Below, piece by piece: positions 21,029 through 52,542 of a DNA stretch of 60,725 nucleotides (position 1 is the stretch's first letter; every line of letters starts with the position of its first letter). The translations under genes and the position numbers were made by a program. This DNA is from a bacterium (lineage in GTDB: Bacteria > UBA6262 > WVXT01). The notes under the pieces were generated by a model that saw nothing but the letters and a program-made list of their open reading frames with translations, did no database searches and had not been told where the DNA came from. The stretch covers positions 2,404 through 63,128 of the forward strand of contig WVXT01000082.1 in NCBI GenBank assembly GCA_011773355.1. Direction: 5' to 3'.

Positions 21029-21208
21029 TCCCGATGAAATCGGGACGAATAAGGAGGAACGGGTTAGCGACGTTCCGATGGGTGAATCGGAACGGGTCAC
21101 CGACTGAAGCGAAGCGAAAGGGTCGCCGTCGCGACGAATAAGGAGCGACAAGTCTGGCGACGGGTTCGAGATGGTGAGAACCCCGGCCGGATTGAGCGAA
21201 GCGAAAGG
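21029..21208 (+). repeat. Mosaic palindromic repeat, copy 1 (rpsO leader)
   Basis: The 229-base gap before rpsO is a chain of small hairpins: TCCCGAT-gaa-ATCGGGA (21029-21045), CGTTCCGAT-gggtga-ATCGGAACG (21071-21094), GTCGCC/GGCGAC (21122-21161), and GGGTT with AACCC around CGAGATGGTGAG (21162-21183). Between them lie ACTGAAGCGAAGCGAAAG (21103-21120) and a second GAGCGAAGCGAAAGG (21194-21208). The same modules recur at 51658-51815. The last module runs directly into AAAGGAGGGGAAA, the rpsO Shine-Dalgarno. Confidence 0.75.
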
Positions 21209-21216
21209 AGGGGAAA

Positions 21217-21486
21217 GTGACTCTAGCAAATAGCAAAAAGAAAGATGTCGTAAAGAAATTTCGCATTCACGAAAAAGATACTGGCTCTGCAGCAGTTCAG
21301 ATTGCCTTAATGACCGAGAGAATTAATGCTCTGACAGACCACTTCAAAACTCATAACAAGGACCACCATTCTCGGCAGGGTCTTTTAAAGCTTGTGGGCA
21401 AAAGAAGAAAACTATTGAATTACTTGAAGGTTCATGATTTGAAGAAATACAGAGAAATTATTGATAAATTGAATTTGAGAAAATAA
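21217..21486 (+). CDS. rpsO: 30S ribosomal protein S15
   Basis: An 89-residue S15 that binds the 16S rRNA central domain early in assembly. Seen: [38 protein letters not shown] and [16 protein letters not shown]. The start is GTG 21217 with AAAGGAGGGG 6 bases upstream; this site comes from the end of the palindromic repeat. In many bacteria S15 represses its own mRNA by binding a leader structure; here the leader is repeat-derived, so that control may be lost or altered. It is followed by pnp in the usual order. Confidence 0.97.
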
Positions 21487-32847: not shown

Positions 32848-32894
32848 GTAGTGTAGCCCTTTGTGGGCGTCCCGATAAATCAGGCCCTTACACT
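32848..32894. repeat. GTAGTG-type palindromic repeat, copy 1
   Basis: GTAGTGTAGCCC on the left and GGCCCTTACACTGC on the right form terminal inverted repeats, with CCCTTTGTGGGC and CCCGATAAATCAGG inside. It is the same family as the copies at 37879-37927 (inverted) and 44746-44809. It lies between xerD and the moxR promoter and ends 24 bases before the -35 box. Confidence 0.75.
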
Positions 32895-44745: not shown

Positions 44746-44809
44746 TTGTAGTGTAGCCCTTTACGGGCGCCCCGATTTATCGGGGCGGGGACGAGCCCTT
44801 ACACTACAA
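44746..44809. repeat. GTAGTG-type palindromic repeat, copy 3
   Basis: TTGTAGTGTA (44746-44755) and TACACTACAA (44800-44809) are perfect 10-base terminal inverted repeats. Between them are CCCTTTACGGGC and GCCCCGATTTATCGGGGC. It is 15 bases longer than the other two copies because of an internal GGGGACGAG stretch. It fills the gap before the TPR protease gene, ending 10 bases before its ATG. Confidence 0.8.
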
Positions 44810-51618: not shown

Positions 51619-51657
51619 TAAAATAAAAAATTTAAAACGAAGAATGTATCAGCCACG

Positions 51658-51815
51658 TTCCGATTAACGAATCGGAAACTGAAGCGAAGCGAAAGTAGGG
51701 AAAGGCGCGGGCGCGAGATGGTAAACGCCCTGGAACGCCGTCCCGATGAAATCGGGACAAGTCCGCCGACGTCCCGAGAGTAAGTCGGGACAGATCACCG
51801 ACTGAAAGGAGGTGA
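51658..51815 (+). repeat. Mosaic palindromic repeat, copy 2
   Basis: Hairpins in order: TTCCGATT-aacg-AATCGGAA (51658-51677), GGGCG/CGCCC around CGAGATGGTAAA (51709-51730), GTCCCGAT-gaa-ATCGGGAC (51740-51758), GTCCCGA-gagtaag-TCGGGAC (51771-51791). ACTGAAGCGAAGCGAAAG occurs at 51678-51695 and ends identically to the copy at 21103-21120. The last module, GACTGAAAGGAGG, ends in a perfect ribosome site (AAAGGAGGTGA, 51805-51815). Confidence 0.75.
51805..51815 (+). promoter_or_regulatory. Perfect Shine-Dalgarno inside repeat, upstream of a four-codon minicistron
   Basis: AAAGGAGGTGA is the best anti-16S match in the window, but the M50 ATG is 40 bases further on. At 51826 lies GTG AGT GTA GTC TAA, in the same frame as the M50 gene, ten bases after the site. 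The stop TAA 51838-51840 is 15 bases before ATG 51856. Confidence 0.45.
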
Positions 51816-51855
51816 GACAACCCGAGTGAGTGTAGTCTAACTCACCGATTGGTGC

Positions 51856-52542
51856 ATGATTACGCTTGAGCAGATAGTGAGGAATCCTTCTCTTGTCTTG
51901 CGAATGATTCCTCTTCCTGTAGCTCTGGTTATTTTCTTTTTTGCAATTGTTATTCATGAATGTGCGCACGCATGGATGGCTTCTCGATGCGGAGACGATA
52001 CCGCAAGAAATGCCGGAAGAATAACGTTGAATCCTCTACCACATATTGACCCTATCGGGACAATAATCTTTCCTCTCCTTCTAATTCTTTCTCGTTCTTC
52101 ATTCGTTATCGGTTGGGCCAAGCCTGTTCCCATTAATCCTTACAATTTCAATAATCCGCGGACGGATCTGGTGAGAGTGGGAGCCTCCGGTCCTCTCTCT
52201 AATATAGGACTGGCGATAGGCTCTTCATTTCTGGTCTGGATATTCAGTTACTTGCCCGTGGGCGAGATAAAGAATTCCATAATGGTAATTCTCCTGTTCA
52301 GCGTTCTGATTAATCTTCTGCTTGCAGTTTTCAATCTACTTCCCATTCCCCCGCTGGATGGCTCACAAATTCTTTCGGGATTATTGCCAACTCATATGGC
52401 TATAAAATATGAGGGGATTTCTCGATACGGTTTTATTATTATCTTTTTATTACTTTTGACAGGTTTACTCTGGGCGATAATTATACCCATCGTCCAGTTC
52501 CTTTATAGTCTACTCTTTTTGTGGGTAGGAAGGGGATTTTAG
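51856..52542 (+). CDS. Site-2 protease, M50B family membrane protein
   Basis: 228 residues with about five membrane helices. HECAH at residues 34-38 is the zinc motif in the first helix; then HAWMASRCGDDTARNAGRIT and PIPPLDGSQIL with the third Asp ligand near the C-terminus. It is the small M50B form without PDZ domains, distinct from RseP at 7727. Such proteins usually cleave membrane substrates; the target is unknown. ATG 51856 has no ribosome site of its own because a CACC-GATT-GGTG hairpin (51843-51854) touches it. Confidence 0.9.
   Translation: MITLEQIVRNPSLVLRMIPLPVALVIFFFAIVIHECAHAWMASRCGDDTARNAGRITLNPLPHIDPIGTIIFPLLLILSRSSFVIGWAKPVPINPYNFNNPRTDLVRVGASGPLSNIGLAIGSSFLVWIFSYLPVGEIKNSIMVILLFSVLINLLLAVFNLLPIPPLDGSQILSGLLPTHMAIKYEGISRYGFIIIFLLLLTGLLWAIIIPIVQFLYSLLFLWVGRGF

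Follow-up and report, generated by a model that had tools for sequence, protein, structure and literature searches.

Small structured repeats in bacteria

The repeat family described here resembles, in some respects, several kinds of small mobile or interspersed sequence. IS200/IS605-derived elements insert one way, 3' of a short specific target, with hairpins near their ends and no target duplication of fixed length. BOX elements in Streptococcus pneumoniae and S. suis, as well as RUP and SPRITE in pneumococci, are modular, structured and apparently parasitic repeats, and BOX possesses terminal inverted repeats and generates target duplications upon insertion (PMC3049150). Bacterial MITEs have been reviewed as well, and one of them, YPAL, has its targets at or near dyad symmetries (PMC2229807).

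How does the element upstream of rpsO compare with these? Like BOX, it is a genus-level modular repeat whose interchangeable units occur in variable number, fold as RNA, cluster, nest and are thought to be parasitic (PMC3049150). By description it is set apart from BOX by a Shine-Dalgarno (SD) sequence at both unit ends, by its single orientation to the gene, and by an end that is the SD of the next gene. With the YPAL and RU-2 MITEs it shares a length below 200 bp, internal inverted repeats and a composition that is not A+T-rich, YPAL also having end duplications of variable length; unlike YPAL, the target here would be a purine SD sequence (PMC2229807). Dispersed palindromes in mosaic arrays are common to it and to REP/BIME sequences (PMC2817692); BIMEs alternate in orientation, and the present arrays do not. 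By analogy with IS200/IS605-derived palindromic elements, the copies would follow AAGG and end in an AAGG of their own. A phrase search of a collection of open-access papers returned none on SD-targeted or SD-duplicating repeats. Given that modular structured repeats of the BOX, REP or MITE-like kind are already known, the novelty is the position at the SD.

From one hairpin to a repeating unit

The window is a stretch of 60,725 nucleotides from a genome of 1.33 Mb that is 84% complete; coordinates on its contig, C70, are converted to window coordinates by subtracting 2403. The two nearest PNPase loci in public genomes belong to metagenome-assembled genomes (MAGs) labelled 'Clostridia bacterium', one of them being CSMAG_1339, and CSMAG names are used in a cold-seep genome catalogue (PMC10491686).

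The feature under study is the hairpin GGGTT-CGAGATGGTGAG-AACCC at 21162-21183 (+ strand), identified from the sequence and pair counts. A related hairpin, GGGCG-CGAGATGGTAAA-CGCCC, is found at 51709-51730 (+ strand). Both lie exactly where the original prediction had put them, with an identical loop core, and two of the five stem pairs differ in a compensatory way: pair 4 changes from T-A to C-G and pair 5 from T-A to G-C. When stem-flanked loops were collected from the whole genome, the combination of stem and loop proved to be enriched and the loop 9-mer alone did not. Taken without a stem, CGAGATGGT has 4 exact copies versus 11 for a reversed control, and a mobile loop defined by this 9-mer alone was dropped. 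The pattern GAGAYGGTRA has 24 matches in the genome; 10 are flanked by stems of 4-6 bp, all of the GGGCG or GGGTT type, and the remaining 14 by stems of 0-3 bp, mostly 0. Two modules in the window are well above chance in number (GAAGCGAAGCGAAAG, 5 copies versus 0.24 expected; CCCGATGAAATCGGG, 4 versus 0.15).

What repeats is not a single hairpin; it is a unit of ∼92 nt in which hairpin 1 is followed by hairpin 2, usually with the loop CGAGNNGGTGAG, and then by a purine-rich tail ending in AAAGGAGG (also written GAAGCGAAGCGAAAGGAGG). The outer stem of hairpin 1 is GTCGCY/RGCGAC, and its inner stem surrounds GACGAATAAGGA. Type T1 has the stems GTTCC/GGAAC and GCCTG/CAGGC, type T2 has GTCGC/GCGAC and GGGTT/AACCC, and type T3 has a larger hairpin 1 plus GGGCG/CGCCC, the hairpin 2 seen at 51709-51730. 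The three types are interchangeable and concatenate in head-to-tail arrays, chimaeric types occur, and whole palindromes are swapped for CCCGATGAAATCGGG or TTCCGATGAATGAATCGGAA.

Upstream of rpsO, two such units are found, both on the + strand. Unit 1 (21037-21121; covariance-model match of 44.5 bits, C70:23440-23524) is T1-like, with both palindromes replaced, and unit 2 (21120-21211; 104.4 bits, C70:23523-23614) is of type T2. Hairpin 1 of unit 2 spans 21122-21161, with an outer stem of GTCGCC (21122-21127) and GGCGAC (21156-21161), again from sequence and pair counts, and an inner stem of GTCGC (21128-21132) and GCGAC (21145-21149) that closes the loop GACGAATAAGGA. The purine-rich tail, CGGCCGGATTGAGCGAAGCGAAAGGAGG, covers 21184-21211 and includes an AAGGAGG (21205-21211) that serves rpsO as its SD at a distance of 5 nt from the start. 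The gene itself, which encodes ribosomal protein S15, occupies 21217-21486 on the + strand, including the stop, with a GTG start, and has orthologues in the three congeners; the PNPase gene follows from 21510. The rpsO-side element extends as far as the SD and the GTG at 21217. Two things were missing from the original prediction: the SD sequences that bound the elements, and the fact that an element provides the next gene with its SD.

The second copy in the window (51655-51822, + strand) is composite, contains AAGGAGG at 51806-51812, and is absent from the orthologous leader in three congeners. The gene downstream (51856-52542) is M50 site-2 protease-like, a label taken from a HECAH motif in the translation and not from a family search.

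Short repeats also occur on their own. The palindrome CCCGATGAAATCGGG is present at 21106-21120 and 51681-51695. This palindrome and others like it occur as interchangeable cassettes across many intergenic regions of the genus, including places without units, and might constitute a minimal repeat in their own right. A further intergenic repeat, GTAGTGTAGCCCTTTGTGGGCGTCCCGATAAATCAGG, has 84% identical copies at 32848-32884 and 44748-44784; it, too, terminates with a CCCGAT palindrome of this kind, and locus L201 has a comparable stretch.

Covariation and structure

The covariation of the stems was tested on two alignments. In that of 26 units, which was not fitted to a model but whose structure derives from the same sequences, 97.8% of pair cells hold standard pairs versus 80.9% when shuffled. 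In that of 83 units collected with the covariance model, which is fitted to the model and hence biased towards its structure, 95.9% of pair cells are paired versus 74.5% shuffled, double changes appear in 13 of the 16 pairs (230 double-change cells versus 68.8), and pairing falls to 35-41% if the partners are slid by one column. Much of the covariation distinguishes types rather than many single events, and T3 shows additional compensatory changes within the type (GCGCC/GGCGC to GCTCC/GGAGC, and TCGC/GCGA to TTGC/GCAA). Selection for a hairpin with a conserved loop, as first proposed, is supported by these data. G-U cells outnumber A-C cells by 16 to 6 without the two outermost pairs, and stand at 17 to 21 with them; the former excess weakly suggests that the sense strand is the one that folds. 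A pseudoknot between the T1 loop AGTCGGTGA and the tail TCACCGACT, seen in folding, was not supported, because the loop varies (AGTTGG, AGACGG, AGATGG) and the tail has no matching changes.

A genus-specific family

The sample of the phylum comprised six genomes, four of this genus (G000-G003) and two of another family. BLAST searches with the 188-nt element returned 14-29 matches for every one of the four genomes of this genus, and 37 other genomes, among them the two of the same order, had no match. The covariance model built from the units recovered a dispersed family, with 13-43 units per congeneric genome, the number varying with the cut-off, and zero units in the two other genomes of the phylum. 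These counts come from genome searches and from individual stretches, the genomes being incomplete MAGs. The family is genus-specific, within uncultured marine bacteria, and no match was found for phage, plasmid or viral copies. The dispersed copies below 200 bp, with no ORF seen in common, are those of a small interspersed or MITE-like repeat. Terminal inverted repeats and target duplications of fixed length were not found: the hairpins are internal only, and the SD repeats are 4-8 nt long, with a right copy that is either target-derived or element-derived.

The same hairpins occur in a second setting, here termed class II, inside composites of ∼300 nt (loci L014, L141, L143, L144, L145, L147, L151, L155 and L157). 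Such a composite starts with GCATCCCGAT..ATCGGGATGCGGATTAGG and has GGTTTCCCCCAAGG-like arms; close to its end is a hairpin, after which the DNA is rich in T. Examples lie upstream of nrdR- and hisD-like genes. These copies, of the T3/GGGCG type, show no coupling to the SD, and the composite could be a distinct family of structured RNAs or a distinct mobile element. At locus L132, one copy adjoins a tRNA gene (1112-1187), and beyond it 20 nt of the tRNA 3' end recur exactly (AAATCCCGTTGGCGCTACCA; 1171-1190 and 1384-1403), a pattern like that left after integration at a tRNA gene.

Position at Shine-Dalgarno sequences

The units that end in an SD tail (class I) have a defined place. At the left end, AGG occurs within the last 7 nt upstream in 28 of 30 first units, mostly as AAAGGAGG or AAAGG. 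At the right end, AAAGGAGG is either the SD of the next gene, in sense and 5-10 nt before the start, or the junction to another unit. The tail pattern matches 54 times. A start codon lies at +5 to +10 after 32 of these matches, one of them a stray match in coding DNA, which leaves 31 true cases. Another unit comes next after 15, and neither comes after 7, two of these not being true unit ends. For about 5 tails, the next 14 nt contain no start codon. With AGG before the left ends and AAAGGAGG at the right ends, the units are flanked by SD sequences on both sides, the right one acting as SD for the gene. Element and gene run in the same sense in all 31 true cases, and the set examined holds no antisense or convergent-gene copies of class I. 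The distance from SD to start is equal in most orthologous sets and differs by at most 3 nt in the others. The genes that follow, dozens of them, are unrelated and have no common function.

A leader with these properties might act on the gene that follows it, its conserved loop binding a protein or ligand and thereby exposing or hiding the SD. The strong covariation, the conserved loop, the constant sense orientation next to the SD and the excess of G-U over A-C cells are what such a cis-regulatory RNA would display. However, predicted SD accessibility showed no consistent change, on which ground SD occlusion was rejected as a mechanism, and the downstream genes share no function. A known RNA family was rejected too, the units having no match in Rfam. 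Around class II copies, the Rfam matches were tRNAs, an L10 leader below threshold and two chance families, also below threshold.

Filled and empty sites in sister genomes

Comparison of the sister genomes revealed presence and absence of the element at rpsO and in all 13 further gene groups, each with at least one genome without it, and some of the empty sites are clean. For two of the 13 groups, those of the M50-like and the amidohydrolase-like gene, what fills the site is a composite or no more than a tail. The mobile hairpin family proposed at the outset gains support from these differences.

Four of the empty sites are near-perfect. At the L150 gene, G000 is empty (AAAAAGGAGG-ATTAAAATG) and G003 is filled (AAAAAGGAGG-[T1]-GTAAGGAGG-GGAAAAATG). 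At a Thi4-like gene, G003 is empty (CAGTCAAAAAAGGAGAAGAATATG; AAAAAAGGAGAAGAATATG) and G001 is filled (CAGTCAAAAAGG-[T2]-AAAGGAGAAGAATATG). The L130 gene is empty in G000 (ATAGAGGAGGTGGTGTGA), where G001 has a T1 unit, and the L007 gene is empty in G001 (CAAACAAGGAGATGAAACATG), with three units in G000. The right SD copy is target-derived at L084 and L112 and element-derived at the KDPG aldolase gene in G002. The gene whose product begins MKEINDLL carries units in all four genomes, in four different module combinations. Such constancy is what a cis-regulatory role would give, but orthologues without the element in every one of the 13 groups and at rpsO, differing module content among orthologues, and the lack of a shared function downstream make a general regulatory role unlikely; we regard it as quite improbable.

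At rpsO, alignment of the four leaders shows that the part common to the three congeners, TCCCGATGAAATCGGGACGAATAAGGAGG (21029-21057, + strand), is a short palindrome whose last bases are the left, SD-like AAGGAGG (21051-21057). It is followed here by 154 extra nucleotides (21058-21211, + strand), between this AAGGAGG and that at 21205-21211, which are missing in the three congeners; these have the short leader GTCCCGATGAAATCGGGACGAATAAGGAGG-GGAAARTG, without T1 or T2 hairpin units. Because the short leader resembles the first part of a unit, the difference at rpsO could be a loss in the congeners. The suggestion that the hairpins are the S15 autoregulatory leader came from their place directly upstream of rpsO. 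It was not borne out: the three congeneric rpsO leaders have no units, the same units stand upstream of dozens of other genes, and Rfam gave only chance-level matches at the rpsO leader. As a general role it is refuted, with hardly any probability left to it, and at most a secondary, local S15 role in this species remains.

A 25-nt mini-form, GTCGCTGTTCCGACGAATAAGGAGG, precedes the gene at 3950 in L191 (G003:C128); it fits a T1 unit that has lost the stretch between its internal and its terminal AAGGAGG.

Insertion or recombination?

Taken together, the feature probably consists of two units of a mosaic interspersed repeat that is genus-specific and non-autonomous, enters SD sequences one way and restores the SD. 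Its observed base is the covarying structure, the sense orientation, the SD at both ends, the presence and absence among genomes, and the mostly equal spacing of SD and start. According to this proposal, copies would enter AAGG or AAGGAGG in a single direction; the left SD would be retained, and the SD at the right end would keep the distance to the start codon, so that the gene would stay translatable. More units would then enter, or duplicate, at the same AAGG(AGG) junctions and form arrays, with stems and whole palindromes exchanged among copies. The family seems to have spread into gene leaders with translation left intact. We infer that the SD is a target for insertion and not a hotspot for recombination; the conserved hairpin would be a recognition signal, and the element mainly selfish.

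Against this reading stand the possible loss at rpsO, the variable length of the SD repeat and the mixed origin of its right copy, the mobilising enzyme that was looked for and not found, the startless tails, the class II copies that are not SD-coupled, and the incompleteness of the genomes. The variable ends, chimaeric types and palindrome swaps also suit a scheme with no transposition at all, in which units pass, by homologous recombination or by template switching, from leader to leader where AAGGAGG and short palindromes are already in common, and are lost likewise. The L191 mini-form and the short rpsO leader fit deletion between internal and terminal AAGGAGG, and that no enzyme was found agrees with this scheme. 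However, AAGGAGG is a very short homology for gains at fresh sites that are otherwise unlike, such as the L150 and Thi4-like genes, and antisense class I copies are strictly absent. Recombination of this kind is rather unlikely. Random insertion followed by selection should leave antisense or convergent copies; class I has none in the set examined. Its single direction, flanking AAGG(AGG) and polymorphism fit entry at the SD.

As for the chemistry of insertion at the SD, two routes would be compatible with the data: a transposase that acts in trans on single strands and recognises hairpins, and recombination through the short homology of SD sequences. An SD repeat of variable length with a right copy of mixed origin suits an IS200/IS605-like or short-homology route better than a fixed-stagger transposase. 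No mobilising enzyme was identified in the four congeneric genomes, incomplete MAGs that were searched for Y1_Tnp and RVT_1, nor was an autonomous IS200/IS605-type parent with these ends found in them. Y1_Tnp gave 0 matches in G000 and G001 and, in the other two, matches away from the copies; when 20 Y1_Tnp loci were searched for the repeat, a single match appeared (E=0.09). Because two of the four genomes gave no Y1 transposase, and those in the other two are unlinked to the copies, a REP/RAYT system was rejected. At L086 (∼1316-1480, + strand), immediately before a T1 unit, is a truncated frame, MTRPLRIIVPNIPFHVLDRGNNRQIVFRGKEDFAYFLKLLKKYKK, that looks like the beginning of a Y1 transposase of the REP-associated kind.

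Strict direction, a 3' end identical to the target and end homology of variable length would also be expected of a retro-element that primes reverse transcription by annealing the 3' end of its RNA, AAAGGAGG, to the target. No RVT_1 protein was found in G000-G003, which are incomplete, while three control genomes gave matches; the retro-element was rejected and is given a very low probability.

Outlook

A family with genuine directional insertion specificity for the SD, whose own 3' SD restores the spacing of the ribosome-binding site and whose restored SD is the next landing site, is a possibility to which we give a little less than an even chance. With SD-flanked sites, both filled and empty, available from four sister genomes, the question of insertion is testable. 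The family also carries a caution: a strongly covarying structure upstream of a ribosomal-protein gene need not be a regulator.

If the proposal is true, the repeat enters the most sensitive spot of a leader, even in operons, without breaking translation. This would be a neat answer to a parasite's need for harmless sites, and one that rewrites the 5' leaders of many genes at once.
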